Both the position numbers and the translations under genes were made by a program. Shown one piece after another: positions 6,844 through 23,839 of a stretch of DNA of 23,839 nucleotides. The notes below the pieces were generated by a model. That model did not search any database. It was not told the DNA's origin and was given only the letters and a program-made list of their open reading frames with translations. This DNA is from a virus, in the IMG/VR virus record IMGVR_UViG_3300025276_000215, positions 1-23,839 of that record; one strand, given 5' to 3'. Position 1 is the first letter of the stretch; every line of letters starts with the position of its first letter.

Positions 6844-7245
6844 TTAGAAGGGTATATTTTCTGAGTCAAACTCTTCTACAAAATTATTCTCTTGAGGAGC
6901 TAATCCAGCTGTAAAACTACCCTCAAACTTAGCGCTATTAATAACTAGCTTAATATAAATAATATCCTTACCAGTTTCTTGATCCGTAAAGCTATCAGCC
7001 ATCATCCCGAACTCAGCTTCAAACGACTTACCTTTCGAGTGCAATAAAGCACTTGTTGTAGCTGAGTCTATTTGAGATTTAAAAGCAACAAATGGTAACG
7101 CTTTAGAGATCCACTTATCACCTTTTTTAGATGAAACTGAAACTTTACCGCTAATAGTTTTGTCGCTTTCCCTTAGTTCGAAGCTTGACTTGTCGAAGGA
7201 ATTAGTGTCTTTGCTCCAGACGTTTTGTAATCTTAGTTTTTGCAT
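6844..7245 (-). CDS. ssb: Single-stranded DNA-binding protein (SSB-like)
   Basis: A 133-aa protein with a beta-rich body and the acidic, Pro-Phe-ending tail EEFDSENIPF. That tail is typical of SSBs and recruits partner proteins. The body does not match the classic E. coli SSB closely, so this is a phage-type OB-fold SSB by inference. The Shine-Dalgarno AGGAG (ctcct at 7253-7257) overlaps the stop of the upstream gene, so translation is likely coupled. Genes for a VRR-NUC nuclease, a YqaJ exonuclease and a NinB-like protein are in the same operon. Its 5' end and leader occur a second time at 7897-7928. Confidence 0.8.
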   Translation of the reverse strand: MQKLRLQNVWSKDTNSFDKSSFELRESDKTISGKVSVSSKKGDKWISKALPFVAFKSQIDSATTSALLHSKGKSFEAEFGMMADSFTDQETGKDIIYIKLVINSAKFEGSFTAGLAPQENNFVEEFDSENIPF

Positions 7246-7259
7246 GTTTATTCTCCTTT
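7228..7259. repeat. Direct repeat copy 1 (32 bp), SSB leader and start
   Basis: Identical to 7897-7928. On the minus strand it spans the ribosome-binding site, ATG and first codons of the SSB gene. Confidence 0.85.
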
Positions 7260-7452
7260 AATTTTGTTTATAATAATGCGCTATTAGCGACCGTAGTTTC
7301 TTCTTCATCACTCTTTCGAAAAGCGCCGTTGGCTTATAGACATATTGCCCGAAAGAAGGATCCCATTCCCTTGTTACGTCTAATAAAGCATCAAGTTCTT
7401 GTCGGTTTTTTCTTTCCGCTTGGCTCTCTGCAACTTGGTAATCCATAATCAT
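7258..7452 (-). CDS. Hypothetical protein (64 aa)
   Basis: A small charged protein with aromatic residues (REWDPSFGQYVYKPTALFER) and a basic C-terminal helix (about 47-62). Its ATG shares one base with the stop of the preceding gene (TAATG type), and its stop abuts the SSB ribosome-binding site. The tight spacing supports real translation within the recombination operon. No family is recognised. Confidence 0.65.
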   Translation of the reverse strand: MIMDYQVAESQAERKNRQELDALLDVTREWDPSFGQYVYKPTALFERVMKKKLRSLIAHYYKQN

Positions 7453-7859
7453 TATTTTATGACTGTAATTTCGTTCTTAGAAACTAGCCCATCAACTAAC
7501 TTACCAAGAATATCTTTCATATCCTTAACGTCAAAACCCATATTTTCAAAAGCTTTGTTGAGAATCGCCGCTTCCGTTGTAGCTGTATTCTTCTCTATTT
7601 GTAATTCTAAAACAGAAGAGCTGACCGCTATATGAATTTTTTGTGCTATCTCCTCATCGGAAGCTTTATTCAAACCCCGCGCATCAAACAGTTCTTTCTC
7701 TATTTTTTGAAATTTATATTTAGTCTCTAGCTCAAAAATTTTGCTCTCTTGCTCAGAGCAGTTAATCTCTTTATTAAGCGCCTCAACTTCGATTTGAAGT
7801 GATTTATTTTCTTCTGTTAGTTTTGTGTTTTCTTCTGTTAGTTTTGTGTTTTTGAACAT
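7452..7859 (-). CDS. Coiled-coil protein (135 aa)
   Basis: Begins MFKNTKLTEENTKLTEENKS, a tandem TKLTEEN duplication, also visible in the DNA as a repeated 21-nt unit near 7813-7854. Residues 5-60 are strongly coiled-coil in composition (Leu/Glu/Lys heptads) and the rest is helical. The start has only a weak AGGA site. A scaffolding or partner-binding function in the recombination operon is possible, but nothing specific is visible. Confidence 0.65.
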   Translation of the reverse strand: MFKNTKLTEENTKLTEENKSLQIEVEALNKEINCSEQESKIFELETKYKFQKIEKELFDARGLNKASDEEIAQKIHIAVSSSVLELQIEKNTATTEAAILNKAFENMGFDVKDMKDILGKLVDGLVSKNEITVIK

Positions 7860-7887
7860 TTGTTTTTTCCTATTTATTTGTTAGTTT

Positions 7888-7914
7888 TTAAATCCTTAAT
7901 CTTAGTTTTTGCAT
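7888..7914 (-). pseudogene. Duplicated SSB start: 8-codon remnant (MQKLRLRI)
   Basis: Bases 7897-7928 repeat 7228-7259 exactly (32 bp). The repeat contains an AAAGGAG site, spacer, ATG and the first SSB codons (MQKLRL). Here the frame then diverges and stops after eight codons. This is either a leftover of a gene duplication/rearrangement that separated the NinB-like gene from the coiled-coil gene, or a short leader peptide kept for coupling. It lies directly after the stop of the upstream gene. Confidence 0.6.
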
Positions 7915-7928
7915 GTTTATTCTCCTTT
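7897..7928. repeat. Direct repeat copy 2 (32 bp)
   Basis: Identical to 7228-7259. On this copy the start codon leads only into an 8-codon frame, and its ribosome-binding site overlaps the last codons of the upstream NinB-like gene. Confidence 0.85.
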
Positions 7929-8408
7929 TTTGTTAATTATAATTGGTTCGGGTACAATTACCTCATAGAATTCAGCAGCCCAATTAATAACTGCATCAAG
8001 GTATTTTGCCGTATTTTCTCTACTTCCTTTGTCATTAGAAACAGATATTGGCTCGCGATAAACTTCACCATCCAACTTAGAAACTTTTTCAATATAAACA
8101 CCGCAACTCTTCATCATCTCTCTTTTAATATCACAATGGAGTTCCTCGTCACTCTCGTAGCATTGCCCTTTGTCTTCAGCAGCTTTTCTAATGCTAGGTA
8201 AGACAACAGACCAATAATAACCCCTCTGGTCGCTCGTTGGTCTTTGAAGCATTGCCATTATTTTCTTGCAATTCTCAGTGCCCTTTCTAACAAAAACATT
8301 AATGAAACCCGATTTAAGAGCCATTCCCTTACGAATATTGTCACTATTGCGAGCTTGTAAATCACCCCACTTTGATTTGTCTTTTATGTCGAAGTTTATT
8401 AAGTCCAT
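7917..8408 (-). CDS. NinB-like recombination protein (163 aa)
   Basis: A layout seen in NinB/Orf-type phage recombination proteins: RPTSDQRGYYWSVVLPSIRK (about 56-75; an Arg/Gln then YYW segment), a stretch with conserved Asp/Glu/His and Lys (SDEELHCDIKREMM), a Ser-rich turn, then YLDAVINWAAEFYEVIVPEP (134-153), where a WA pair precedes a proline-containing end. NinB-type proteins are thought to help load recombinases on SSB-coated DNA. The match is from memory and moderate. It overlaps by one base the YqaJ gene upstream, which supports a shared recombination role. Confidence 0.6.
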   Translation of the reverse strand: MDLINFDIKDKSKWGDLQARNSDNIRKGMALKSGFINVFVRKGTENCKKIMAMLQRPTSDQRGYYWSVVLPSIRKAAEDKGQCYESDEELHCDIKREMMKSCGVYIEKVSKLDGEVYREPISVSNDKGSRENTAKYLDAVINWAAEFYEVIVPEPIIINKKGE

Positions 8409-9034
8409 TATTTAAGTTTCTCCAAAATTTCATCTCTTAAGCCGGCGCATTTTTTAGCTTCCTCTTCAAGCCTAGCAATGAAAGGCTCATCTCTAAACTG
8501 CCTAATCACAATCAGGCTTTTCTCAGAATCTTTAGTTTTTCCTAATGCTATAAAATCGCACCATTTTCTATTAGAAACCCATAGCCCAAATTGAACTTGG
8601 CATTTATACGCTGATGGCATGACATTTGGTCTCTTTAACAAAATTGAAGAATGTCCTTCGGCTTCTAAGCATTTAACCTCGATTAATCCATTATCACCGA
8701 CTAATCCATCGGGAGAATAAGCGAAATTCTCGCACTCACTTAAGATAATTCCAATCTCCTCAACTTCACAAAAAGCGTATTCTTGATAAAGCTGTCTAGC
8801 TAACTCCTCGCGCTCATTACCGTCTTCCATAGCTAAACTTTTGAAGCCTCCCCCTACTTTAAGCTCCTCGTATGCTAATTCTAAAGCTAACTGTTTAGCA
8901 TATTTCGGCAAAGTGGCACTTTGCTTGCCAGTTGTTGGAGCTAAAAGACTAGATGCATTACTAGCGGAAACCTTACCCTTCTTGATCTCTAGCCATTCTT
9001 CAGTTCCTTGAATTAGTTGTTTAAGTATTTTCAT
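8408..9034 (-). CDS. YqaJ-type (lambda-exonuclease-like) DNA exonuclease
   Basis: A 208-aa protein with the YqaJ family landmarks: GTEEWLEIKKGKVSASNAS at 10-28, a D/N-rich MEDGNERE near 69-76, the catalytic SPDGLVGDNGLIEVKC (D109, E119, K121), and KCQVQFGLWV (Q146). The family digests one strand of double-stranded DNA ends for phage recombination by single-strand annealing, usually with a RecT/Beta-type partner, which I do not see here. The Shine-Dalgarno GAGGTGAT, just upstream of the ATG, lies within the preceding gene's end. Strong call. Confidence 0.9.
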   Translation of the reverse strand: MKILKQLIQGTEEWLEIKKGKVSASNASSLLAPTTGKQSATLPKYAKQLALELAYEELKVGGGFKSLAMEDGNEREELARQLYQEYAFCEVEEIGIILSECENFAYSPDGLVGDNGLIEVKCLEAEGHSSILLKRPNVMPSAYKCQVQFGLWVSNRKWCDFIALGKTKDSEKSLIVIRQFRDEPFIARLEEEAKKCAGLRDEILEKLK

Positions 9035-9581
9035 TTATCACCTCTTTATTTGTTTCAACAAGTCTTTTAAGTGTCTTTAAAATCCCTGCATGACTTGAAG
9101 CTAGTAAATCCTTCAAAGCTTTAACTCCGTAAGCTAGACAAATGTCAGCCGCTGATTTATCAGTCTTTCCAAGCAGCTCTTGAATTTCAATTGTTTGCTC
9201 ATCAGTTATTTTCTTAACTTGTAACGAGCTTTGCGAAACATTACGAACGCGGAGACAATCAACTTCTTGGCTTTTTACTTTAGTTTGCGAAATACCAATC
9301 TTTAGCTTCTTGCCAACTGATTCTTCAATGTACTTATCACCAGTCACTTTCATAACCATTTTAGCATTAGTAACATTGCAAATCCAAGGCTTAACCCACT
9401 TGTGATTGTCAGAGAATCTGATTACTCGCTTCTCCTCTTTAGTATTAAGAACTGGATTTTCCACCGCTTCCCATCCTGCAGAGGCAATTGTTAGAACTAC
9501 ATCTTCACCGTTAGGCAATTCTGCGTGTCCTAGATAGTTTTTATTTGGATTATGAAGCCAATGCGTTTTTGTTTTAGTCAT
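9021..9581 (-). CDS. Conserved phage protein beside YqaJ (186 aa)
   Basis: I chose the ATG at 9581 (MTKTKTHWLHNPNKNY) because GGAGG precedes it with good spacing and its start overlaps the stop of a small gene. The sequence NPNKNYLGHAELPNGEDVVL, the stretch SVGKKLKIGISQTKVKSQEV and VDCLRVRNV are typical of a widespread phage protein that sits near YqaJ/SSB genes; its N-terminal part is beta-rich (OB-like?), the C-terminal part helical. A role in recombination is inferred from neighbourhood only. It might be the missing annealing/loading partner. Confidence 0.7.
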   Translation of the reverse strand: MTKTKTHWLHNPNKNYLGHAELPNGEDVVLTIASAGWEAVENPVLNTKEEKRVIRFSDNHKWVKPWICNVTNAKMVMKVTGDKYIEESVGKKLKIGISQTKVKSQEVDCLRVRNVSQSSLQVKKITDEQTIEIQELLGKTDKSAADICLAYGVKALKDLLASSHAGILKTLKRLVETNKEVINENT

Positions 9582-9699
9582 TATCAAGCCCTCCATCATA
9601 AGTAATACCATATTTCTCACCCATTTCAGCAAAAGGCTCAAAAGCATTTACCATTATTTCAGCCATTGCTTCATCGACTATTTTTATTTCTTTAGACAT
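9574..9699 (-). CDS. Small acidic protein (41 aa)
   Basis: Begins MSKEIKIVDEAMAEIMVNAF and ends in YDGGLDND. The stop overlaps the start region of the 186-aa gene (ATGACTAA), and the ribosome-binding site of that gene lies inside this one, so the two are likely translated together. Net negative charge; no family is recognised. A GAGAG sequence upstream is a possible ribosome-binding site. Confidence 0.6.
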   Translation of the reverse strand: MSKEIKIVDEAMAEIMVNAFEPFAEMGEKYGITYDGGLDND

Positions 9700-9709
9700 A
9701 ACTCTCTTT

Positions 9710-10006
9710 TTAATTATTTAGACTTTGTGTGTCGTAATATTCAGATCTTAAATCCGATTCCTCATCTTCATTTATTAATTTATTCTCTTGATATTTCTCT
9801 TCAGCAGCTTCTTGCCATTTTTTAGCATACTTAGCATGATTTAAAGTAAATTCAGAGTTAAAGCCTATTTTACTGATAGCCTCAATCTCTAAAACATCTT
9901 TACAATCTTCGCAATGCTGCAAGTAATCTTTACGGAGTTCCGGCAAAGTATCAGCTTCTAATGCGCCCGAATTTTCTTCTAAATCTATTGAGTAGTAAAT
10001 TTTCAT
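9710..10006 (-). CDS. Hypothetical acidic protein (98 aa)
   Basis: The ATG at 10006 (MKIYYSIDLEENSGALEADT) is preferred: the frame is open further upstream, but only through a low-complexity repeat that leaves most frames open. The protein is rich in Glu and Asp, with four aromatic/Cys positions (DYLQHCEDCKDV) and a helical C-terminal half. It starts 16 bases after the Gly-rich gene's stop. No Shine-Dalgarno is clear. Function unknown. Confidence 0.6.
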   Translation of the reverse strand: MKIYYSIDLEENSGALEADTLPELRKDYLQHCEDCKDVLEIEAISKIGFNSEFTLNHAKYAKKWQEAAEEKYQENKLINEDEESDLRSEYYDTQSLNN

Positions 10007-10022
10007 TTTGTAATTGTTTTTG

Positions 10023-10245
10023 TTAAGCGCCATAGCCATAGCCATCGCCAGATCCATCGCCATAGCCATAGCCATCACCAGATCCAAAGCCATAGCCATA
10101 GCCATCACCAGATCCAGAGCCAGATCCATCGCCATCGCCATTGCCAAAGCCATAGCCATCACCAGATCCAGAGCCATAGCCAGAGCCAGAGCCAGAGCCA
10201 TCGCCATAACCATAACTATCGCCAGATCCATAGCCGCCGCCAGCG
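10023..10245. repeat. Low-complexity hexanucleotide-like repeat region
   Basis: Units resembling GGCTAT, GGATCT and GGCGAT follow one another for about 200 bases on the minus strand. No stop codon is found in several frames on either strand. Repeats of this kind can change length by slippage in steps of six, keeping the frame. Confidence 0.75.
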
Positions 10246-10271
10246 CTTTCTACTTTATGCCTTATAATCAT
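10023..10271 (-). CDS. Gly/Tyr/Ser/Asp repeat protein (82 aa)
   Basis: After MIIRHKVESA the protein is built of short units such as GYGYGDGSGDG, i.e. Gly alternating with Tyr, Ser or Asp. The DNA is a matching hexanucleotide-type repeat. Its ATG overlaps the end of the preceding DUF6948-like gene (frame shift of the overlap, 17 bases). Low-complexity Gly/Tyr/Asp proteins occur in several phages next to DUF6948-like genes, as I recall; the function is unknown. Because the same DNA is open in other frames on both strands, the choice of frame rests on start position and the reasonable composition. Confidence 0.55.
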   Translation of the reverse strand: MIIRHKVESAGGGYGSGDSYGYGDGSGSGSGYGSGSGDGYGFGNGDGDGSGSGSGDGYGYGFGSGDGYGYGDGSGDGYGYGA

Positions 10272-10632
10272 CCTGGCCCTCGATTGACTTAATACTTTCT
10301 AATGAGCAAGGTATAAGTTCTACCGCTTGCAACCAATGTGAGCTAGTTGGAGCGCAGACTTTGCTGTCACTATGTAATCCGCTAATCGCAACTTCACTTA
10401 AAGAAATTCCTGCGTTAGTAGTTTTCCAATAGTACAACCTTCTAGCATCAGCGATAATTACTTCTGATCCACTTTTTTCGATAAGTTTACCAAAAAAAAC
10501 ACCAGCAGAATATGTTCTAACAATAACCTTTTTACCTACTAACGAATTCAATCCAGATTCGCTTGACTCTCTATTACTAAAGAGCTTCTCTATTTCTTTA
10601 AATTGACCTAAAGTCAAATCGTCTATGTTCAT
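10255..10632 (-). CDS. DUF6948-like phage protein (125 aa)
   Basis: Contains GKKVIVRTYSAGVFFGKL (33-50), then EVIIADARRLYYWKTTNAGI, with LSEVAISG, and ends SIEGQDDYKA. This is the layout I associate with DUF6948, a small beta-rich domain of unknown role found in phages. It is the first gene of the leftward unit starting at about 10700 and shares a 17-base overlap with the Gly-rich gene. No Shine-Dalgarno is visible; the leader is AT-rich. Recognition is from memory and not searched. Confidence 0.65.
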   Translation of the reverse strand: MNIDDLTLGQFKEIEKLFSNRESSESGLNSLVGKKVIVRTYSAGVFFGKLIEKSGSEVIIADARRLYYWKTTNAGISLSEVAISGLHSDSKVCAPTSSHWLQAVELIPCSLESIKSIEGQDDYKA

Positions 10633-10685
10633 AATTTATTTATTTTGAGTTAAGAAAAATTAGTTTTTATTATCGTCTGCAAAGT

Positions 10686-10745
10686 ACTTTACAATGATGT
10701 GAATATTAATGTCAACTATTAAAGTTAACTATTTTAGTAATAATT
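10686..10745 (-). promoter_or_regulatory. Promoter/operator of the DUF6948-to-VRR-NUC unit
   Basis: On the minus strand TTGACA (10715-10710) is followed after 18 bases by TAAAGT (10691-10686), a usable sigma70 promoter. The upstream 40 nt (10706-10745) recur at 20149-20188 with one mismatch, including a palindromic AGTTAACT here. The repeat overlaps the last codons of the GNAT gene. Likely a shared operator or activator site plus the -35 box. Confidence 0.6.
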
Positions 10746-11130: not shown

Positions 11131-11176
11131 AATTCCTATTTTATTAAACCCCCGCTATTACTAGCTTAAAAGGGGT

Positions 11177-11209: not shown

Positions 11210-11228
11210 GGTTTGGATATTTTAATCA

Positions 11229-11402: not shown

Positions 11403-11417
11403 ATTTCTCCTTTTTAA

Positions 11418-11780: not shown

Positions 11781-11804
11781 TATTTCTCCTTTATTTAAAT
11801 TATA

Positions 11805-12077: not shown

Positions 12078-12091
12078 ATTTTTCCCTTTAT

Positions 12092-12547: not shown

Positions 12548-12556
12548 TTTTATTAG

Positions 12557-12769: not shown

Positions 12770-12770
12770 G

Positions 12771-15219: not shown

Positions 15220-15261
15220 AACCGACTCAACTACCAGTCACTTTTCTAGGTTGAGTCGGTT
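15220..15261 (-). terminator. Rho-independent terminator of the 161-aa gene
   Basis: Perfect 12-bp inverted repeat AACCGACTCAAC (15220-15231) and GTTGAGTCGGTT (15250-15261), loop 18 nt. On the minus strand the stem is followed by a T-rich run (TTTTT). It lies directly after the stop at 15272, so it ends leftward transcription of the winged-helix-like gene. Confidence 0.8.
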
Positions 15262-15271
15262 ATCTCTTATT

Positions 15272-15757: not shown

Positions 15758-15883
15758 AACTACCCCCAAAGGTTTTAGTGAAAAAATGGTAATATCTGAA
15801 AATTAAAAATTTTCTCTACACTACACAGCGAATAAGCTCCCACAATGTTATCTTCGCTTAATGCGTACCCCGAAATCAGTTAA

Positions 15884-15949
15884 TGAAGAGGAAAGAATTG
15901 CACTTTCTACCTCCCCAAAAGGGCGCTCTACTAAATGAGCTACACTTCA
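15884..15949 (-). tRNA. tRNA-like element with reduced anticodon arm (degenerate tRNA-Pro?)
   Basis: On the minus strand: acceptor TGAAGTG paired with CTCTTCA (one mismatch), TA, D stem GCTC/GAGC with 8-nt loop, T stem GAAAG/CTTTC with loop TGCAATT, and a 5-nt variable region AGGTA. The anticodon arm is only 11 nt (CCC, TTTTG, GGG) instead of 17. Length 66 nt. The loop TTTTGGGG suggests descent from tRNA-Pro(UGG). No CCA is encoded, and the GG of the D loop is AG. Probably not a working tRNA: a remnant, an attachment-site relic, or a tRNA mimic. Confidence 0.45.
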
Positions 15950-15960
15950 TCAACCTAAGC

Positions 15961-16037
15961 CTTTCAGCTTTACAAGCCACACTAGAACCTAAAAAATTCC
16001 CCTTTGAAAAATCTAGTGCAGCTTGTAAAATTGAAAG
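15961..16037. repeat. Imperfect inverted repeat, 26-nt arms
   Basis: Arms 15961-15986 and 16012-16037 match in 22 of 26 positions, in three blocks: CTTTCA/TGAAAG, TTTACAAGC/GCTTGTAAA and CACTAGA/TCTAGTG. The two differences are symmetric 2-nt internal loops. The loop is 25 nt and AT-rich. It would fold into a long RNA hairpin or act as a two-arm DNA-binding site. Confidence 0.8.
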
Positions 16038-16240
16038 TAACGATCCTTATCCTAAATTCGTAAATCGTTGCAAAGTCTTTCAACTTCGGGAATTACTCTA
16101 AACAACGTGCTTTTATCAGTCAAGAAGAATGTTCGGTTTTTAGTAAATTAATTTGAGGAACTTCTTAGGCTCTAGTTGCCTTACGGTAATATTAAATTTA
16201 ATTACTTGCTTATTAGGTTCGGTTTTAGATAGTTTTTGTT

Positions 16241-16265
16241 CGATTAATTTAAAATTATAGGATGA
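16241..16265. repeat. Direct repeat at the methyltransferase start
   Basis: CG(A)TTAATTTAAAATTA then T/C and AGGATGA: this copy and 17181-17204 differ by one base and one extra A. Each copy ends at a start codon (methyltransferase and recombinase-like gene). Confidence 0.75.
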
Positions 16266-17191
16266 TAGATTTAATAGAAGGCGATTGTCTTGTTGAAAGC
16301 GATAAAATAGAAAGTGGAAGTGTTGATTTGATATTGACAGATTTACCTTACGGAACGGTGCGGGATATTAAAAATGTAAATCATGGAATGAGTGGAAAAT
16401 GTGATTGGGATGTTGTTATTGATACTGATAAAATAATGCAGATTGCAAACCGTATTTTAAGAAAAAACGGTAAAATGATATTGACGGCACAAAGCCTTTT
16501 TACACATGAATTAATAGATAAGGCAATACCAAACTTACCTTTTAATTATTCTATGATTTGGGAAAAAGACCATTTCGCAAATGCTTTAATCGCTAAAAAA
16601 GCTCCTGTAAATTATTATGAAGATGTTTTAGTTTTTAGTAAAAGTGGCTCTGGTGATGGTAATAAAGTCAAGGAGTATTTAATAAAAGAAAAAGATAAGG
16701 CTTATGATAAAGGGTGGACAGATAAAACATTAAGACAATTATGTGAGGTTAGTTTAAAAGGTGGTGGGCTGCTTTGTCATTATTGGAGTGTTGGACAATG
16801 GATGATGCCAACAGAAAAAAGGTATGTTAAATTGCAAGAAACAGGATTTTTTACAAAACCTTATATTAAACTAAAAAAAGAAAACAAAAGACTTGAAGCG
16901 ACCTTTAATTTATGGGAAGGCAACAAATACAAAAGCAATATTCTAAAGTACAAAAAGGACTACACAGGACACCACCCAACACAAAAGCCTATTTTATTGC
17001 TTGAAGATTTAATAAAGACATTTAGCAATAAAAATGACTTAGTAGTTGATCTTACAATGGGAAGCGGTAGTACAGGTGTTGCAGCAAAAAACACGAATCG
17101 AAACTTCATAGGAATTGAGCAAGACGAGGGATATTTTAAGATAGCTCAAGAGCGAATAACTAAAGAAGTTAAACAACAATCGTTAATTTAA
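16262..17191 (+). CDS. DNA methyltransferase, beta class (309 aa)
   Basis: Motif IV is DLPYG (27-31) and motif I, the S-adenosylmethionine site, is DLTMGSGSTG (263-272), so the catalytic part comes before the cofactor part: the beta order of N6-adenine or N4-cytosine enzymes. HHPTQKP before motif I is the usual conserved element. The middle (about 100-235) is the target-recognition region. No restriction enzyme gene is nearby, so it is a solitary phage methyltransferase, possibly anti-restriction. Base composition is more AT-rich than its neighbours and the gene is flanked by 24-nt repeats, a sign of transfer. Confidence 0.88.
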   Translation: MIDLIEGDCLVESDKIESGSVDLILTDLPYGTVRDIKNVNHGMSGKCDWDVVIDTDKIMQIANRILRKNGKMILTAQSLFTHELIDKAIPNLPFNYSMIWEKDHFANALIAKKAPVNYYEDVLVFSKSGSGDGNKVKEYLIKEKDKAYDKGWTDKTLRQLCEVSLKGGGLLCHYWSVGQWMMPTEKRYVKLQETGFFTKPYIKLKKENKRLEATFNLWEGNKYKSNILKYKKDYTGHHPTQKPILLLEDLIKTFSNKNDLVVDLTMGSGSTGVAAKNTNRNFIGIEQDEGYFKIAQERITKEVKQQSLI

Positions 17192-17204
17192 AATTACAGG
17201 ATGA
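17181..17204. repeat. Direct repeat after the methyltransferase
   Basis: Second copy of the 16241-16265 repeat. It spans the last codons of the methyltransferase gene, its stop, and the start codon of the recombinase-like gene. Confidence 0.75.
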
Positions 17205-17563
17205 CTAAAAAGCCTTTCACTCAACGCCAGATCAAAAAGATAAAACAAATACTTTTACAAGACGGCAAAACGAGGGATTATCTATTGTTATCAATAGCAC
17301 TAGAGTTAAAGATAAAAAACTGCTATCTGTTAAGACTACAAGTTGAGGATTTATGCTATTTAGAGATTGACAGCGATACAATAGTTCACGCGATACGTTA
17401 CGCTAATGAAGAGAAGCTTCAAAATAAAGACTATCTATTTTCTGGAAATGGAAGGGGTCAGCCAATCACTAGAGTGCATTGCGCTAGGATTATTAAGAGT
17501 TGGTGCTTGAAGTTGGGTTTAGAGCGTGGTGATTACTCTACTAAGTCGCTGTTTTGGAGTTGA
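17201..17563 (+). CDS. Truncated tyrosine-recombinase-like protein (120 aa)
   Basis: Matches the core of phage integrases: FTQRQIKKIKQILLQ, then RDYLLLSIALELKIKNCYLL, RLQVEDL, DYLFSG (77-82), PITRVHCARIIKSW (88-101) and YSTKSL (112-117) where integrases have a T-H-S-L-R motif. The protein stops there, before the HxLR, second His and Tyr. At the first catalytic site K37 stands where R is expected. So it lacks most active-site residues. It may be a degraded integrase, a DNA-binding regulator, or a decoy. Confidence 0.7.
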   Translation: MTKKPFTQRQIKKIKQILLQDGKTRDYLLLSIALELKIKNCYLLRLQVEDLCYLEIDSDTIVHAIRYANEEKLQNKDYLFSGNGRGQPITRVHCARIIKSWCLKLGLERGDYSTKSLFWS

Positions 17564-17692
17564 TTATTTAATATAATGAATCTCATTACAGTTATTACTA
17601 GCTTTAGAATATCTAGCATAAAAGCATTCGTCAGCATCATTAGTTATTTCCCCAACGCAGCTCGTTAGTAAGATTAGAATTAGTAATCTCAT
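17564..17692 (-). CDS. Small lipoprotein (42 aa)
   Basis: MRLLILILLTSC ends in a lipobox (L-T-S-C), so Cys12 would be lipidated after signal peptidase II cleavage; the mature 31 residues have two more Cys and a YARYSKAS stretch. Its ATG overlaps the preceding stop by one base (TAATG). Small phage lipoproteins serve as outer-membrane spanins or block superinfection at the cell surface; which one is not visible. Last gene of the leftward operon, converging with the recombinase fragment (stops adjacent). Confidence 0.7.
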   Translation of the reverse strand: MRLLILILLTSCVGEITNDADECFYARYSKASNNCNEIHYIK

Positions 17693-17892
17693 TATTTATA
17701 TTTTTCGATTAGCTCGTCAAAATTATCAGGAACTCCCTTTTTAGGAGTAATTTTGTTAATTGGAGCAAGTCCTATTTCATGAGCTTCTGCACGAGTTTTA
17801 CACTTTTTTTGCGCTTTTAGTGATGATAGAGCTATTTCAACAATTTCTAAAGCGGTTGGTTTAATTTCTTCGTTTGTTGTTTTTGTAAGCAT
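17692..17892 (-). CDS. Hypothetical protein (66 aa)
   Basis: Starts MLTKTTNEEIKPTALEIVEI and carries ITPKKGVPDNFDELIEKYK at the end. It is helical and basic, with one Cys. Its start follows the Ala-rich gene by nine bases without a clear Shine-Dalgarno; its stop overlaps the lipoprotein start. No family recognised. Confidence 0.6.
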   Translation of the reverse strand: MLTKTTNEEIKPTALEIVEIALSSLKAQKKCKTRAEAHEIGLAPINKITPKKGVPDNFDELIEKYK

Positions 17893-17901
17893 TTTTGTTA
17901 A

Positions 17902-18600
17902 TTATTTGATTTCAGTTAAATTGTAAAGTTTTCCATGTAATCTGATTTGAGTTATTTCAACAACTTCTAGCTCTTTTTTATCATTAATCTGCAAGTGAGC
18001 AATAGTTGATGATTTTTTAGGCTCTTCTTTAGGCTCTTTTTTAGGCTCTTCGCATAATCTCCAAATTTCTATTGGGAGATATTCCTTGCAAATATTAGAT
18101 GTTTCTAATTCAGATTGTTTTCTAGCGGCATCAGCAGCAGAATAATCATCACCAGCAGCATAATCATCATAAGAAGCAGCAGAAGCAGCGGTAGCAGCAT
18201 AATCATCATAAGAAGCAGCAGAAGCAGCGGTAGCAGCATAAGAAGCAGCATAAGCAGCATAAGAAGCAGCATAAGCAGCATAAGCAGCATAAGAAGCAGC
18301 AGAAGCTGCCGCCGCTTTATCTAACTCATCTCTATTAATTTTACCTTCGCCAAAAGCAATCGCAGCATCAACAGCGGCTAAAGCCCTTTCATCTTTCATT
18401 AGATGTCTAATTGTATTAGCGCAATGGCCTTTTGCTAAAGTTAGCTCTCTTAAAGAATCTGGGTTTGATTTTTTGAACAACCACAGCATCCAGTCGCCTC
18501 TTTCACAAGTTTCGTAGAATTCTTTGAAAGTTAGTTTTTCAGCGAAGTCCTTGAAGTCTTTACTCAAATGTTCGTTTACTATTTCTTGATAATTTTCCAT
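17902..18600 (-). CDS. Imm-5-like Ala-rich protein (232 aa)
   Basis: The N-terminal part has CERGDWMLWLF (32-42), the hallmark of Imm-5-like putative immunity proteins, and TLAKGHCANTIRHLM. Residues 95-165 are an Ala/Ser/Tyr/Asp repeat (units SAASYAAYAA, then SAASYDDYAA twice). The end has a Glu/Lys/Pro linker (EEPKKEPKEEPKK) and a short beta-rich tail. Proteins of this type are found in many genomes with such Ala tracts; the immunity label comes from domain naming and has little direct support. Weak ribosome-binding site. Confidence 0.65.
   Translation of the reverse strand: MENYQEIVNEHLSKDFKDFAEKLTFKEFYETCERGDWMLWLFKKSNPDSLRELTLAKGHCANTIRHLMKDERALAAVDAAIAFGEGKINRDELDKAAAASAASYAAYAAYAASYAAYAASYAATAASAASYDDYAATAASAASYDDYAAGDDYSAADAARKQSELETSNICKEYLPIEIWRLCEEPKKEPKEEPKKSSTIAHLQINDKKELEVVEITQIRLHGKLYNLTEIK
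18155..18232. repeat. 39-bp tandem duplication
   Basis: Two exact 39-bp units, 18155-18193 and 18194-18232, encode two copies of the SAASYDDYAATAA segment of the Ala-rich gene. They sit inside a longer run of GCAGCA-type trinucleotides. Confidence 0.8.
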
Positions 18601-18607
18601 AATTTAT

Positions 18608-18757
18608 TTATTCAGTTAATACACTTGCAATAACATCAAAGCGTTGAATCTCAAGCTCAAGCATCTCAATATCTCGATTCTTTTTAATATATTCAGCACC
18701 ACAGATTATTGCTAGTAGGACTACGGTCAGGGTGATGATTAAGAAGAGGTGTTTCAT
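18608..18757 (-). CDS. Small membrane protein (49 aa)
   Basis: Starts MKHLFLIITLTVVLLAIICG, a single membrane segment, then a charged helical tail (YIKKNRDIEMLELEIQRF). Its ATG directly follows the stop of the next-upstream gene. Topology is N-in with the tail outside the membrane, or a signal anchor. It has no proper lipobox. A partner of the 51-aa gene is suggested by adjacency. Confidence 0.65.
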   Translation of the reverse strand: MKHLFLIITLTVVLLAIICGAEYIKKNRDIEMLELEIQRFDVIASVLTE

Positions 18758-18913
18758 TTATTTTAAAATTTCGTTAATAAAAAGCCAAATCCCACCTATT
18801 AACATCAATGAAAGAAAAAGAACGATCGACCAGACTATCAAGTTTGCTGAAAAGTTTTGATCTTCAATCTGATCGAATGCTTGATTGAGAAACTCTAATT
18901 CATCTTTTTTCAT
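18758..18913 (-). CDS. Small membrane protein (51 aa)
   Basis: An acidic N-terminal part (MKKDELEFLNQAFDQIEDQN) precedes a membrane segment (about 25-47, LIVWSIVLFLSLMLIGGIWL). The ATG overlaps the stop of the 151-aa gene (ATGA). Tail-anchored layout. Together with the 49-aa gene, it could form a small membrane complex; not tested. Confidence 0.65.
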   Translation of the reverse strand: MKKDELEFLNQAFDQIEDQNFSANLIVWSIVLFLSLMLIGGIWLFINEILK

Positions 18914-19365
18914 CTTACAAAGCCCCCAGCCACAACTTGAGCTTCAAGAGCTGAGGTGCTGCATTTTTTACCAATATAATTAGTACCCTCTCTTTTGTCT
19001 TTATTAATAAGAAAAGTCTTGAAGTGACTAAAGAAAACTGAAGTGCTGTGGCCTATTAAAGTTATTTTTTTATCTCTAAACTCTTCAGCAATTTTAGCTA
19101 TATGCTCACGTTTTAAAGCCGTCTTAGTTTTTGAAGCGGCTCTGTATGCTTGAATATCAAGATTAACCAAGGGCTCAACTCTTGAGCTATTCCACTCGAA
19201 GCCGCCTTTTATAGCTGATCGAAGCAAATCTCTCGGATGAGAAAGGTTTTTCTCCGCATTTAGAGCTAGAACCATGTCTCTCTCATTGTTTACACCCTGA
19301 TCTTGTAGTTGTGCAGCTTTCTCAGCCCACATTATGTTTTTTGCAGTTATTCTAATCATTATCAT
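18910..19365 (-). CDS. Hypothetical protein (151 aa)
   Basis: Helical, with LSHPRDLLRSAIKGGFEW (41-58) and TLIGHSTSVFFSHFKTFLIN near 102-121. The start could be ATG 19365 or ATG 19359; GAG upstream of the second makes it a fair alternative. The gene overlaps its neighbour by 14 bases. No family is recognised; the conserved look of the first segment suggests a functional protein, perhaps nucleic-acid or partner binding. Confidence 0.6.
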   Translation of the reverse strand: MIMIRITAKNIMWAEKAAQLQDQGVNNERDMVLALNAEKNLSHPRDLLRSAIKGGFEWNSSRVEPLVNLDIQAYRAASKTKTALKREHIAKIAEEFRDKKITLIGHSTSVFFSHFKTFLINKDKREGTNYIGKKCSTSALEAQVVAGGFVR

Positions 19366-19600
19366 TCTCGATTGAAATTGATGTAAATACTAGTGGTCTA
19401 CCAGTTTTTTTAAACTTACCCTTAAATCCATCCTTACCTTTGCAGGCCTCCCTAAGGGCGCCAACCATTCCTTTTGGATGGCTCGGTGAGATTGTAGAAA
19501 GAGTCATCAATGCTGCGAATTCTTTACGAGTTGCGTCAGGATGGTTTTTTCTGAGTAGTACAGCTCTTTCTTTTAGAAGTAGATTGCGTGCTTTAGTCAT
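19352..19600 (-). CDS. Hypothetical basic protein (82 aa)
   Basis: Basic and helical at the N-terminus (MTKARNLLLKERAVLLRKNH), with PDATRKEFAALMTLSTIS resembling a helix-turn-helix-like segment and a basic Gly/Lys region. A GAGG site lies in the preceding micro-gene, and the start overlaps its stop. DNA binding is possible, by composition only. Confidence 0.55.
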   Translation of the reverse strand: MTKARNLLLKERAVLLRKNHPDATRKEFAALMTLSTISPSHPKGMVGALREACKGKDGFKGKFKKTGRPLVFTSISIENDND

Positions 19601-19683
19601 TATAATACCTCGGTTTTCAGGATTTGTCTAAATCGAAGGTAAGATCTAAAGTTGAATTGCAAGTTTGAGATTAGTTTTTTCAT
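19600..19683 (-). CDS. Micro-protein (27 aa)
   Basis: MKKLISNLQFNFRSYLRFRQ is strongly basic and amphipathic. Both ends share bases with the neighbours (TAATG at each side), which argues for translational reinitiation. No Shine-Dalgarno of its own. Confidence 0.5.
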   Translation of the reverse strand: MKKLISNLQFNFRSYLRFRQILKTEVL

Positions 19684-20027
19684 TATTTCAGTAATAAGAT
19701 TATTATAAGTATTATCATAACAAAGTTTAACGCTCTGTCAAAGGCTCTACGATCAAAAGTTCTAGTTTTCTTTTCAGTCCGCTTCGTGTATTTATTAACG
19801 GGGATAACTTCGAAAGTCTCACTCTCACTAGACGAAATAGAGTAATACTCAATGCCGCCAACTTTTATCTTAGTGACTTCGTCATTGTGTCGAAGAGTGC
19901 GTAGATAGTTCGCAATAGTCGGCCTTTGGAGTTTGTCTTTTGACCAAATTTCTGTCAACGTCATTGGCCCATCTTTACGTTCTAATATTCTTAGAATCGC
20001 GTCATGCCCCTTGTGTAATTTTGTCAT
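19683..20027 (-). CDS. Winged-helix protein with C-terminal membrane anchor (114 aa)
   Basis: Residues 5-65 look like a winged helix (HDAILRILERKDGPMTLTEI, WSKDKLQRPTIANYLRTLRH, VTKIKVGGIEYYSI). A polar basic linker (about 78-95) leads to a final hydrophobic helix, NFVMIILIIILLLK (101-114), long enough to anchor the tail in the membrane. A DNA-binding domain tethered to the membrane is unusual for a phage. It is the second gene of the leftward operon. Function unknown; membrane-bound regulator or DNA/membrane contact are options. Confidence 0.7.
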   Translation of the reverse strand: MTKLHKGHDAILRILERKDGPMTLTEIWSKDKLQRPTIANYLRTLRHNDEVTKIKVGGIEYYSISSSESETFEVIPVNKYTKRTEKKTRTFDRRAFDRALNFVMIILIIILLLK

Positions 20028-20095
20028 TAGATGATTTTGATTAATATTAGCGGAATTGTAGTAATTATTAAATATGCGATAATTGAGATAAACAT
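20027..20095 (-). CDS. Micro-protein, 22 aa, hydrophobic
   Basis: First gene of the operon: MFISIIAYLIITTIPLILIK, nearly all hydrophobic, one membrane span. A strong AAAGGAG site precedes the ATG, 18 bases or more after the promoter region, and the stop overlaps the next start (TAATG). It resembles small toxin-like or leader peptides; a role in positioning the neighbouring membrane-anchored protein is also conceivable. Confidence 0.6.
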   Translation of the reverse strand: MFISIIAYLIITTIPLILIKII

Positions 20096-20129
20096 TGTCT
20101 CTCCTTTAATTGTTAATTTCGATAGACAC

Positions 20130-20188
20130 ATTATGCGAGGGGTAAATGTTAATGTCAACTATTAAAGTAAACTATTTTAGTAATAATT
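20130..20188 (-). promoter_or_regulatory. Promoter/operator of the micro-gene operon
   Basis: TTGACA (20158-20153) and CATAAT (20135-20130) with a 17-base spacer on the minus strand. The 40 nt at 20149-20188 match 10706-10745 in 39 of 40 positions. The repeat lies partly upstream of the -35 box. Good sigma70 promoter; the shared repeat suggests a common regulator. Confidence 0.75.
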
Positions 20189-20221
20189 ACTAAGCTAGAG
20201 AGAGTAGGTTTAGCACAGCGA

Positions 20222-20250
20222 TTGACTGCAAAGTAAAAGAAAATAAAATA
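20222..20250 (+). promoter_or_regulatory. Possible promoter of the RHH operon
   Basis: TTGACT (20222-20227), 17-base spacer, AAAATA (20245-20250). Weak -10 box. It would face away from the leftward promoter about 65 bases away. Confidence 0.4.
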
Positions 20251-20316
20251 AACTTCTTTACATTACAAAACAGATAATAACAATATATAACAGATATTAA
20301 CACAAACCAATAAGCA

Positions 20317-20460
20317 ATGAATGTATTCTCAGTAAAACTACCCTTAAAACTATACAAAGAATTAGAGGTAATGTGCAAAGAATTAGAGCGATCTAAGGTT
20401 TATATAGTTAGAAAAGCTCTTGAACATTATTTAGAAAAGAAAAGGAGGGAAACTAAATGA
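20317..20460 (+). CDS. Ribbon-helix-helix (CopG/Arc-like) regulator (47 aa)
   Basis: MNVFSVKLPLKLYKELEVMC is the RHH beta strand and first helix; SKVYIVRKALEHYLEKKRRE the second helix. The size and layout fit a dimeric repressor or antitoxin-type DNA-binding protein. Its stop overlaps the next start (ATGA) and an AGGAGGG site for the next gene lies in its end. It sits beside the divergent leftward promoter with the shared 40-nt sequence, so it may bind there. No toxin gene is clear next to it. Confidence 0.8.
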   Translation: MNVFSVKLPLKLYKELEVMCKELERSKVYIVRKALEHYLEKKRRETK

Positions 20461-21065
20461 AAAAACTAACAGAAAAAGAATTTGACTCAATCAAAAGAGA
20501 TGCATTAGGGGTTAAAAATATTCCTCCTTACACTGATTTAACTGACATTAAGATCTTTGGAGAATCTTGTAGTTTTGGAGAAGATTGTAGTTTTGGGCAA
20601 TCTTCTCGCTTTGGACAACATTGTAGCTTTGGGAAATATTGCAACTTTTCCAGATTTTGCAAATTTGGAAAATATTGTACCCTTGGAGAAGATTGCGACT
20701 TTGGACAATATTGCGTCTTTGGAGAATCTTGTAGCTTTGAAGAATCTTGTAGTTTTGGACAACATTCCGACTTTGGGAAATCTTGCAGCTTTGAAGAATA
20801 TTGTAGTTTTGGAGAAGATTGTAGTTTTGGGCAATCTTGCTTTTTAGCTAATTTAAAAATAATCAACTACAAAGCCGTAGACAGAGTTGGTAAAGAAAGA
20901 AGAAAAGTCACTTGTTGGAATTTGGAAGGAACGCTATATTTTCAAGCCGGTTGTTTTTTCGACAAGGAAAAACCTTTGAAAGCTAAAGTTTTAGAAAAAT
21001 ACGGCGAAAAATGCGAGTATTTGGAAGCTATCAAATATCTAAAAAGAGTAATTAAAAAATATTAA
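20457..21065 (+). CDS. Cys-Phe-Gly hexapeptide-repeat protein (202 aa)
   Basis: From about residue 33 to 129 the protein repeats a six-residue unit of the type S-F-G-E-D-C about 16 times (FGESCS, FGEDCS, FGQHCS, ...). Cys is at 14 of the 16 unit positions. This is a probable beta-helix in which Cys residues stack, perhaps binding metal or pairing. The C-terminal part (about 130-202) is globular, with KVTCWNLEGTLYFQAGCFF. I recall similar Cys-repeat phage proteins; function unknown. The Shine-Dalgarno AGGAGGG is strong. Confidence 0.75.
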   Translation: MKKLTEKEFDSIKRDALGVKNIPPYTDLTDIKIFGESCSFGEDCSFGQSSRFGQHCSFGKYCNFSRFCKFGKYCTLGEDCDFGQYCVFGESCSFEESCSFGQHSDFGKSCSFEEYCSFGEDCSFGQSCFLANLKIINYKAVDRVGKERRKVTCWNLEGTLYFQAGCFFDKEKPLKAKVLEKYGEKCEYLEAIKYLKRVIKKY

Positions 21066-21084
21066 AATCAAAACCAAAATAATT

Positions 21085-21174
21085 ATGAAAACATTAAAAG
21101 AAAAGTTTGGATCACATTTACATAGGTATTTCAGAGGAACTTACGGGTATGAAATATGCTTCCCCAATAATTAA
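21085..21174 (+). CDS. Small protein (29 aa)
   Basis: MKTLKEKFGSHLHRYFRGTY with a further GYEICFPNN. No Shine-Dalgarno. Basic N-terminal part; low confidence because of length. Confidence 0.35.
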   Translation: MKTLKEKFGSHLHRYFRGTYGYEICFPNN

Positions 21175-21211
21175 ATAATCATGAAAAAACTAACACAAAT
21201 AAAATTAGATT

Positions 21212-21463
21212 ATGAGTAAAGAAGTAAAAAAGACAATCGGCTACGACATAACTCCACTTACAGAAGATGACTTTAAAGGAATGCAAACAACTTGCGGACG
21301 AGCTTGTTTACTGTCAGGTGTGTTTATTACTAGAAATGGCGGTCCTAAACCAATTATTTCAGAAGAAGCGTACGACTTATTGCTACATAACAAAGATTTA
21401 AAGAGTAAAGTAAGGAAGTTAATAAGGGATGAGATTATTAAACAAAAACAATTTAGATTATGA
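21212..21463 (+). CDS. Hypothetical protein (83 aa)
   Basis: A compact protein with MSKEVKKTIGYDITPLTEDD, a GRACLLSGVFITRNGGPKP stretch and a basic helical end (LKSKVRKLIRDEIIKQKQF). Its stop overlaps the next start (ATGA). No Shine-Dalgarno is clear. No family recognised. Confidence 0.6.
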   Translation: MSKEVKKTIGYDITPLTEDDFKGMQTTCGRACLLSGVFITRNGGPKPIISEEAYDLLLHNKDLKSKVRKLIRDEIIKQKQFRL

Positions 21464-21849
21464 AAACTATCAAGGAAAGAATAGCGTATATTGAAGAGCA
21501 ATCTAAGGAAGACTTACAACAAATTGTATCAGATGCCGAACATTTTAGAGCAGTTACTAGAAAATATGAAGCTGAAATTGCTATCTCAGTAATCAAAGAG
21601 CTTCAGCAAGAGCTTAAGGAGCTTAAGAAAGACAAATGGGAATTGATAAAATCAGCGCCAAAAGACGGGACTGAAATTCTTTGCTTTGAGGACAGAATGG
21701 GAATAGGACAAATGGTTCTTTATTACCGAGACGGATATTGGAGAGAAAAATGCAACGGCTTAGGGTTGAAAAATATCCCTACACATTGGCAGCCACTAGG
21801 CATCCCACCAAAAGAAAAGGAGGATAAAATAATAAATTTGGAGGATTAG
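21460..21849 (+). CDS. DUF551-like protein (129 aa)
   Basis: A coiled-coil N-terminal part (1-60; QQELKELKKDKW) is followed by a region with the DUF551 layout: WELIKSAPKDGTEILCFE, YYRDGYWREKCNG and IPTHWQPLGIPP. DUF551 is a small phage domain of unknown function. The fusion with a coiled coil is not rare. The start overlaps the preceding stop by four bases. Confidence 0.7.
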   Translation: MKTIKERIAYIEEQSKEDLQQIVSDAEHFRAVTRKYEAEIAISVIKELQQELKELKKDKWELIKSAPKDGTEILCFEDRMGIGQMVLYYRDGYWREKCNGLGLKNIPTHWQPLGIPPKEKEDKIINLED

Positions 21850-21853
21850 AGAA

Positions 21854-21982
21854 GTGTTTATTGGTTTTTTGGGAATTGTAGGCTTAGTAGTATACGCACT
21901 ATTTATCATTCAATTCACAGTTTGCGCTGCAAAGCATGGGTTTACGGAAGCTATTAGAAGATTAAAAAATTTTACAGAATAA
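21854..21982 (+). CDS. Small membrane protein (42 aa), GTG start
   Basis: A GTG codon with GGAGG nine bases upstream starts MFIGFLGIVGLVVYALFIIQ, a membrane segment, then a Cys and a basic helix (KHGFTEAIRRLKNFTE). Tight spacing after the DUF551-like gene supports it. Confidence 0.55.
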   Translation: MFIGFLGIVGLVVYALFIIQFTVCAAKHGFTEAIRRLKNFTE

Positions 21983-22084
21983 ATGACGTTGTTACAGAGT
22001 CTTCAATCAAATAACAGTCAAATAAGCCCAGCACTACAACCTAAAGGCTGCAACAGTTTGTTACAGGGCAATAATTGGAATTAA
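21983..22084 (+). CDS. Possible small protein (33 aa)
   Basis: MTLLQSLQSNNSQISPALQP, with a later LLQG-type end, starts right after the previous stop. The DNA contains two TTGTTACAG repeats (near 21990 and 22058). No Shine-Dalgarno, so it may be chance or a short regulatory stretch. Confidence 0.25.
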   Translation: MTLLQSLQSNNSQISPALQPKGCNSLLQGNNWN

Positions 22085-22088
22085 TCAA

Positions 22089-22442
22089 ATGAGTAACGTA
22101 AAAGAGCTAAGAGAGCTGATAATAAAAGCTAATAAAACAGAATTAAAATATATTACTAAACTCAGTAAAGAAGATTTGGTAGGAAAAGGATTTGAGCATT
22201 CATTACAGAGCATTTCAAAAGCTGATTGGAGAGAAGAGCCTACAACTCTAATTATAGTTTTGAGAGCCTTACGAAAAATCGAAGCTGGATATGATGGGCT
22301 TAACGAGTCTATATTTGAGTTTGTAGATGTAGATTACTATGAGAATAACACAAGATCACTATGTCCTTGGGATTTAACTAAAGACTTAGACGGACAGAGC
22401 GAAGAGACAATATCAAAACTATTAAAATTAATTAAAGAATAA
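22089..22442 (+). CDS. Hypothetical protein (117 aa)
   Basis: Helical, acidic C-terminal half (PWDLTKDLDGQSEETISK). GGAA lies upstream of the ATG. No membrane segment and no recognised motif. Followed by the strong promoter at 22446. Confidence 0.55.
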   Translation: MSNVKELRELIIKANKTELKYITKLSKEDLVGKGFEHSLQSISKADWREEPTTLIIVLRALRKIEAGYDGLNESIFEFVDVDYYENNTRSLCPWDLTKDLDGQSEETISKLLKLIKE

Positions 22443-22445
22443 GGC

Positions 22446-22474
22446 TTGACACCCCCAAAGTTATGTTCAATAAT
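22446..22474 (+). promoter_or_regulatory. Rightward promoter upstream of the XRE/HNH genes
   Basis: TTGACA (22446-22451), 17-base spacer, AATAAT (22469-22474). A short GAGC/GCTC repeat follows at 22483-22495. It likely drives the genes from 22519 onward, including the XRE regulator, which could control this promoter. Confidence 0.65.
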
Positions 22475-22518
22475 AACTCACCGAGCAATTAGCTCACTTA
22501 ATCAAAAAGGTAAAAATT

Positions 22519-22896
22519 ATGACAAATAAAATCACACTTGAAGAGTTTTTTGTAGGAATGACTAATGACGTGAACGTAGTGCGCAAATCGAACTACAACT
22601 CTTATCTTTATCAGTTAGCTAGAAAAGCAGCAAAAAGAAAAGGTTTAAATTTCGATGTCATGAATGACTGCGATTTATTCAAGAATAAAAGAAGTTGGAC
22701 AGCTTTAAGAAACAAGGCTGCGGCTTTAGATGAAGAAGACCGCAAAAACTGGATGAAGAAGCACGAAAAAGAAATTATTTGTGCCGCTGATGCTTTAAAA
22801 AAATTAGGATATTTAACTTTTAATCCTGATATTTTATTTGAAAAAGCAGAAGAATTTGTAAAAGAAAATTTTATTGAATTTCAAGATAATGAATAA
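22519..22896 (+). CDS. Hypothetical protein (125 aa)
   Basis: First gene after the promoter at 22446. Helical, rich in Lys, Asn and Asp (KKHEKEIICAADALKKLGYL), with an N-terminal TLEEFFVGM. Weak AAGG site. No family recognised; a DNA-packaging or regulator helper is possible from position, not sequence. Confidence 0.55.
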   Translation: MTNKITLEEFFVGMTNDVNVVRKSNYNSYLYQLARKAAKRKGLNFDVMNDCDLFKNKRSWTALRNKAAALDEEDRKNWMKKHEKEIICAADALKKLGYLTFNPDILFEKAEEFVKENFIEFQDNE

Positions 22897-23071
22897 AGAA
22901 CAATTCAAAGCAAACCGCCAATCCCTAAAACTTTCTCAAAGGCAACTAGCAGAAGAACTAGGACTCGCTAAACACGGCAACACAACAATCAGGAGAATAG
23001 AGGCTGGAGCAAATGCGAGCGGGTTATTGCTGCGTTGTTTTGAGTTATTATTAATAATTAAAGGAAAATGA
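22889..23071 (+). CDS. XRE-family helix-turn-helix regulator (60 aa)
   Basis: I chose ATG 22889 (MNKEQFKANRQSLKLSQRQL), which overlaps the previous stop by eight bases; an in-frame TTG lies further up. The LSQRQLAEELGLAKHGNTTI and RRIEAGANA elements are the classic XRE helix-turn-helix. It resembles small Cro-type regulators, likely to control the promoter just upstream. Its stop overlaps the next start. Confidence 0.8.
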   Translation: MNKEQFKANRQSLKLSQRQLAEELGLAKHGNTTIRRIEAGANASGLLLRCFELLLIIKGK

Positions 23072-23391
23072 ACCTACAAAAGAAGCCCTTAAATCTCAGA
23101 AACGGCTACAAAGACGAGAAGAGACTAAAGAGAATAAGACAAATGCGCTGTATCGTCTGCGAGAGGCTAGGAGTAGATCAAACAACTAGAACCGAAGCCC
23201 ATCATCTAATCGGGTACGGAATGGGAAAGAAAGCCAGCGACCTACTCACAATCCCTCTTTGCTCTAGCCATCATGCTAGGGGGAACATGGGGGAGGCTAT
23301 TCACGAAACACCGATTAAGCAATGGCAAGTGGTATTCGGGAGACAAGAAGAGTTATTGCTATTAACTAACGAAAAACTAGAGTGCCTCTAA
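23068..23391 (+). CDS. HNH/Ref-like nuclease (107 aa)
   Basis: Contains CIVC (C28, C31), EAHHLIGYGMGKKASDLLTI (H45, H46), then PLCSSHHARGN (C65, H68, H69) and a later His at 79. This is the layout of Ref/DUF968-type HNH proteins, where the Cys/His set binds zinc and the His residues cut DNA. Ref-type proteins act in recombination, and phage HNH proteins often sit next to packaging genes. The start overlaps the XRE stop (ATGA). Confidence 0.75.
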   Translation: MNLQKKPLNLRNGYKDEKRLKRIRQMRCIVCERLGVDQTTRTEAHHLIGYGMGKKASDLLTIPLCSSHHARGNMGEAIHETPIKQWQVVFGRQEELLLLTNEKLECL

Positions 23392-23440
23392 TAGGGGCTT
23401 AAGGCAACTTCCGCCACGGGGTGGAGCTAAACAAATTAAC

Positions 23441-23797
23441 ATGAATAATAAACAAAAAAAAGCAAAGTCGCTATTAGATAACTTCTTCGGCTTAGATCAA
23501 TTCGAGAAATATGACTTTAATGAAGCGGAAAGAACTAAGGCCCCCATGCCACGCTATTTTAAACTCAAAGATATTCTGAACCCCTCTCCGTCTACTTACA
23601 TTCTTTTTAGGAAATGGATAAGGGCTATAACAGAAGGCACTCTTGCTAAATATGGCGAAGGGAGTTCGTTTAAACTATATAATTCACTTTTAATGGTTCT
23701 TGCAGCTTTGGAGCTAAATATTACCGACTCAAAGATAGAAGTTTGGGAAGGTAAATATCCAATTCTAGCTATGTTAAATGACACAAACTTAAATTAG
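23441..23797 (+). CDS. Hypothetical protein (118 aa), possible packaging protein
   Basis: Helical and basic at the start (MNNKQKKAKSLLDNFFGLDQ), with SYILFRKWIRAI-type hydrophobic stretches (STYILFRKWIRAITEGTLAK). Position after an HNH gene and before a further rightward gene would suit a small terminase subunit, but no helix-turn-helix is clear. No Shine-Dalgarno at normal spacing. Function uncertain. Confidence 0.5.
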   Translation: MNNKQKKAKSLLDNFFGLDQFEKYDFNEAERTKAPMPRYFKLKDILNPSPSTYILFRKWIRAITEGTLAKYGEGSSFKLYNSLLMVLAALELNITDSKIEVWEGKYPILAMLNDTNLN

Positions 23798-23799
23798 TA

Positions 23800-23839
23800 A
23801 TGTTTAAAGACAGCTTTAAAAAGAAAATAAAAGGAATTT
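23800..23839 (+). CDS. Start of a further gene (3' partial)
   Basis: ATG at 23800 opens MFKDSFKKKIKGI and runs off the window. Too short for identification; a terminase or portal gene would be expected here in a typical phage layout. Confidence 0.4.
   Translation, partial: MFKDSFKKKIKGI

Follow-up and report, generated by a model that had tools for sequence, protein, structure and literature searches.

A 40-nucleotide element repeated ahead of two leftward gene groups in an uncultivated phage is probably a promoter-operator module used twice

Why does a phage carry almost the same 40 nucleotides at two distant sites, each time ahead of genes read leftward, and does this repetition place the two gene groups under one control? 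The question arose from a preliminary description of the window, by which we mean the whole stretch of DNA analysed (23,839 nucleotides, viral record IMGVR_UViG_3300025276_000215). It had reported 39 matches in 40 positions between 10706-10745 and 20149-20188. Realignment confirmed this agreement, with T/A at 10726/20169 as the sole mismatch, and lengthened it to 44/47 identical positions (10699-10745 against 20142-20188).

10706..10745, minus strand: copy 1, the conserved box with its -35; minus strand AATTATTACTAAAATAGTTAACTTTAATAGTTGACATTAA, 39/40 to copy 2.
20149..20188, minus strand: copy 2, the repeated element; minus strand AATTATTACTAAAATAGTTTACTTTAATAGTTGACATTAA, 39/40 to copy 1.

Read jointly on the minus strand, both copies give AATTATTACTAAAATAGTTwACTTTAATAGTTGACATTAA, with TTGACA close to the downstream end. 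The pair is beyond chance, since 100 dinucleotide shuffles yielded no match to the 40-nt element. A search for further copies, which the same description had called for, found no third one among the 23,839 bases when as many as three mismatches were tolerated; because the record is probably a fragment, the full phage genome may hold extra copies beyond it.

As had also been claimed, TTGACA lies inside both copies and both stand upstream of leftward genes. The hexamer occupies 10715-10710 in copy 1 and 20158-20153 in copy 2 on the minus strand, so that both copies point left. By sequence match, each has the attributes of a sigma-70-type promoter, namely TTGACA and a TATAAT-like hexamer 16-18 bp apart with correctly oriented genes following.

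10686..10715, minus strand: predicted core promoter of copy 1, TTGACA-N18-TAAAGT, 10/12.
20130..20158, minus strand: predicted core promoter of copy 2, TTGACA-N17-CATAAT, 11/12, among the three top-scoring sites in 6000-23839.

The core of copy 1 is the weaker, with a mediocre -10 and an 18-bp spacer. Promoter-like matches alone prove little, because the scanned region contains 62 sigma-70-like matches against 55.9 in shuffles, which is no enrichment. The distribution of identity between the copies is more informative. Aligned at the -35, they share 29/30 positions upstream of it, the whole hexamer (6/6) and 10/17 of the spacer; on either side of this stretch the agreement drops to background (4/15 further upstream, 12/37 downstream). 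The shared part is thus a box abutting the -35 and not a whole promoter, a profile that suits either a regulator box or a strong upstream element for RNA polymerase. Coding constraint cannot explain the identity, because the upstream-most 17 nt are coding in copy 1 and non-coding in copy 2.

In copy 1, a GNAT-like gene (10729-11130, minus strand) ends within those 17 nt, which contain its last codons and its stop. Copy 1 is therefore internal to a longer leftward cluster, where it heads a 96-nt gap. Copy 2 sits in a divergent region, with the leftward micro-gene operon on one side and a rightward RHH gene on the other. Strong Shine-Dalgarno sequences precede only some genes of the window, and the window holds no Rfam families or tRNAs.

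6844..10632, minus strand: recombination block downstream of copy 1, with a DUF6948 protein, a low-complexity ORF, small ORFs, a YqaJ exonuclease (8408-9034) and an SSB-like protein (6844-7245).
20027..20095, minus strand: hydrophobic micropeptide of 22 aa, the first ORF after copy 2, MFISIIAYLIITTIPLILIKII, with an AAAGGAG Shine-Dalgarno.
19683..20027, minus strand: winged-HTH protein (IclR/MarR-like) of 114 aa, the second ORF after copy 2, with a Pfam HTH_IclR match (3.3e-5) above the cut-off; candidate regulator.
17564..19600, minus strand: remainder of the micro-gene operon, small genes downstream of copy 2.
20317..20460, plus strand: RHH (CopG/Arc-like) protein of 47 aa, divergent from copy 2, with matches to Pfam RHH_1 (1.7e-8) and to PHROGs CopG-like, Arc-like repressors.

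The SSB assignment was made by eye from the tail of the protein, which has an acidic C-terminal tip. Around the start of this gene, 7228-7259 and 7897-7928 form a perfect 32-nt duplicate, TAATCTTAGTTTTTGCATGTTTATTCTCCTTT, in which the SSB-like gene's Shine-Dalgarno and initial codons recur upstream; this suggests a short recent duplication. Three genes of the window (20555-20876, 9999-10276 and 18124-18333) consist of short in-frame tandem repeats, their types being an 18-nt hexapeptide-like unit, GSGDGYG-like or its other frame, and AASYAAY-like.

From the identity, position and orientation of the copies, and from the profile of their identity, we infer that transcription starts at both, that the gene groups are co-regulated and that a protein binds the box. 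The two copies are probably one phage promoter-operator module used twice, by which both gene groups would fire in the same infection phase. Each copy would supply a sigma-70-type core, with TTGACA as -35 and a -10 of its own, preceded by the shared box of about 30 bp abutting the -35. This box would most likely bind a regulator or, alternatively, serve RNA polymerase as a strong upstream element, so that the recombination block behind copy 1 and the micropeptide/winged-HTH operon behind copy 2 would be expressed together.

The alternative role of the box leads to an explanation that dispenses with a phage regulator altogether, in which the copies are strong early promoters for the host polymerase that share an AT-rich, UP-like region. 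The core of copy 2 is near consensus, the upstream region is AT-rich, and the early promoters of T4, whose extended consensus includes UP elements, provide a precedent (PMC2988021). The core of copy 1 is weak for such a reading, however, and the box has fixed G and C positions with no clear match, by eye, to the E. coli UP consensus. A UP function would not require near-identity over 30 bp either, although a recent duplication could account for it. We consider this explanation a real possibility that falls short of being the probable one.

Direct orientation of the copies would also agree with recombination (att or excision) sites bounding the 9.4-kb replication segment, and a weak integrase-like ORF of 120 aa (phrog_216, 7e-5) lies between them. 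That ORF is short and has no Pfam or PDB match, inspection by eye showed no inverted core typical of tyrosine recombinase sites, and each copy falls on a -35 element, all of which speaks against att sites. Such a role is very improbable.

Comparison with other genomes bears on whether the pair reflects shared control or a chance event. Among 2.9 million viral contigs, and among the genome contigs of GTDB, nothing matched exact or near-exact patterns of the element, and neither the element nor degenerate tandem 13-bp versions of it returned anything convincing from viral contigs, genome contigs, phage records or plasmids. The layout, on the other hand, recurs. In several distant relatives that share the SSB (48-57% identity) and/or DnaB (31-35%), among them G003/G004/G014, L049, L053, L055 and L056, each genome has several TTGAC promoters that are nearly identical to one another and lie at SSB, replication and small-ORF operons. 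These promoters fall into two classes, and their box sequence differs from that of the window. Class A (TTGACTTTAACATTttACATTGTAAACTTA; for example L042 85- and 3450+, L049 and L055) stands ahead of replication, SSB and small-ORF operons, and its conservation begins at the -35 and extends through the spacer (14-15/17) into the leader further downstream (24-29/37). Class B (GTAAATAATTCATATATTTAC, with TTGACA immediately after; L042 6142+/6831+, L052 and L056) is conserved upstream (22-24/30), and its best-conserved copies contain the 7-bp inverted repeat GTAAATA-N7-TATTTAC.

The window pair, conserved upstream of TTGACA, has the geometry of class B. The sequence of its -35 region also resembles class A: the likeness of copy 2 was equalled by 1 of 2000 shuffles and that of copy 1 by 53 of 2000, and within the window copy 2 ties for the best segment, whereas 38 of 3962 overlapping windows do as well as copy 1 or better. 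These similarities hint at, but do not prove, common descent of the window element and the promoters of the relatives. Not all relatives have the layout: G020, G001 and G002, which stand nearest by SSB or DnaB identity, lack a comparable TTGACA pair, and the DnaB relatives L003/L004 (62% identity) likewise have no matching element. A separate likeness concerns the DNA methylase gene, in which 370 bp (16274-16643) are 87% identical to Cellulophaga phage phi10:1, with no such stretch elsewhere in 9000-23839; a recent exchange is probable.

These comparisons also weigh on another account, in which about 47 bp were duplicated recently and by accident, with no shared regulation. The element exists in two copies only and is absent from relatives, and the perfect 32-nt duplicate at 7228/7897 indicates that short duplications do happen in this phage. 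Because there are only two copies, a recent duplication without selection explains their identity equally well. Against an accident, both copies stand ahead of leftward units and are oriented alike with respect to the genes, the identity ends at a promoter landmark, and the relatives have repeated promoters in these same genomic modules. An accidental origin is unlikely. Co-regulation through a shared promoter/operator, as the preliminary description proposed, stays the best reading given the profile around the -35 and the two leftward units, and because relatives repeat near-identical promoters, with a class B box that also lies directly upstream of TTGACA. The part of the proposal that is not supported is the naming of the RHH protein as the obvious regulator.

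Two substructures were found inside the element.

10708..10733, minus strand: two tandem 13-bp units in copy 1, possible half-sites, AATAGTTAACTTT / AATAGTTGACATT; an equally good 13-mer direct repeat arises in 2.6% of shuffles.
20151..20176, minus strand: two tandem 13-bp units in copy 2, AATAGTTTACTTT / AATAGTTGACATT; equally good in 4.7% of shuffles.

The unit consensus is AATAGTTnACwTT; its repetition in the box is only marginally significant against shuffles, and further weak copies of the unit occur at chance level only. The second substructure is an imperfect dyad, GTTwACT-TTAAT-AGTTGAC (GTTAACT in copy 1), which overlaps the -35 and pairs at 6/7 positions in copy 1 and 5/7 in copy 2.

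This dyad is one of the points in favour of the winged-HTH protein, which would bind the element and so control both its own operon and the recombination block. The protein is encoded by the first full-size gene after copy 2, its HTH_IclR match lies above the Pfam cut-off, and its ATG overlaps the TAA of the micropeptide (TAATG), an arrangement of translational coupling. Autoregulation is common for regulator genes of the winged-HTH type. A single-sequence structure model of low confidence gave the HHH-beta-wing order, with a confident hydrophobic C-terminal helix at 93-113; the protein may act elsewhere because of this predicted membrane tail. Against its candidacy, the dyad is imperfect and single-strand folding of the dyad or element is no better than in shuffles, and no homologue of the protein appeared in the viral-contig scan. 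It has no sequence match in the PDB either. We regard the winged-HTH protein as a possible, tentative candidate.

The preliminary description had instead considered the RHH protein the obvious regulator, which would bind the 40-nt element and co-repress both leftward units. That argument rested on adjacency, and the winged-HTH gene, lying inside the copy-2 operon, has an equal or better claim. The RHH gene is indeed adjacent to copy 2 and divergent from it, and its product is a credible CopG/Arc-like repressor. A single-sequence structure model of the protein did not show the expected beta strand. The gene's own leader, however, holds a different repeat.

20273..20302, plus strand: three tandem 10-bp units, a candidate RHH autoregulatory operator, GATAATAACA / ATATATAACA / GATATTAACA, 14 nt before the RHH start codon.

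Three TAAC motifs at exact 10-bp phase are unique in the window and occurred in 0 of 60 shuffles, in a set of phased-repeat and RHH comparisons chosen after the sequence had been inspected. This repeat differs from the 40-nt element in both sequence and period, the TAAC units are not conserved between the two 40-nt copies, and no short tandem half-sites are common to the RHH leader and the element. Relatives point the same way: in the sequence scanned, no RHH was detectable in those with repeated promoters (G003, G004, G014, G022 and G023), and among all relatives scanned only G021 had a detectable one.

G021 provides an argument for RHH control, and it also shows why that argument does not carry over to the window. 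Its RHH gene adjoins the SSB gene, and a 29-nt stretch of the RHH leader reappears in inverted orientation, with 27/29 identical, in the promoter ahead of that phage's recombination block (L060 9577-9605 and 12978-13006). The same leader has ATTAAC twice at 10-bp phase. It is plausible from these sequences that in G021 the RHH protein controls the recombination genes, and that it does so via an RHH-type motif absent from the window's 40-nt element. Binding of the window's element by its RHH protein is accordingly rather unlikely, and its standing as the obvious regulator is unsupported. In a rough order of plausibility, either no phage regulator (strong early promoters) or the winged-HTH protein in an autoregulatory loop comes first, followed by the RHH protein and then by another HTH protein or a host factor.

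A wider scheme can be imagined, in which the box upstream of TTGACA belongs to an undescribed early-control system, widespread among uncultivated phages sharing the SSB and DnaB; each would have its own multi-copy promoter-box placing recombination, replication and micropeptide operons under a single regulator, which in this phage might be the membrane-tailed winged-HTH protein. We consider this unlikely as stated. If the module reading is true, the micropeptide/winged-HTH operon can be assigned to the expression phase of the phage's recombination genes, and the element offers a definite 40-bp stretch with which to look for its regulator. As the relatives show, promoters nearly identical within a genome recur among these uncultivated phages, which allows regulons to be read from sequence alone.

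By layout, the window pair resembles two phage systems in which one protein acts at many sites. In the Bacillus phage SPbeta, the 15-bp SPBRE motif is present at about ten promoters, and its binding by MrpR, a repressor with a tyrosine-recombinase fold, has been proven (PMC10516654). As there, a short conserved element is repeated in intergenic promoter regions of the phage, SPBRE being bound by one repressor that controls several operons; unlike SPBRE, the window has two 40-nt copies in another sequence context, with candidate binders only. Cluster A mycobacteriophages carry more than 20 asymmetric 13-bp operators/stoperators for one phage repressor, many of them in short intergenic spaces away from promoters (PMC9283540). 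The copies described here share with L5-type stoperators a dispersed arrangement and a fixed orientation to transcription, but there are only two and both are at promoters, and the number 13 common to both cases has no established meaning. In T4, early promoters share an extended consensus with upstream elements and middle promoters have a MotA activator box at the -35 region (PMC2988021); unlike those middle promoters, the window's copies keep a consensus -35 hexamer, and no MotA/AsiA-like factor was identified. Similar in layout too are the relatives' repeated promoters, with several near-identical TTGAC copies per genome and, in class B, conservation upstream as here, although their box sequence differs and class A is conserved downstream. 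As in a dispersed-operator system, the same element stands at more than one phage promoter, here in two copies at two promoters of a probably fragmentary record. Phages in which one protein binds a repeated element at several promoters are already known, and by its layout the window pair may be a further instance.
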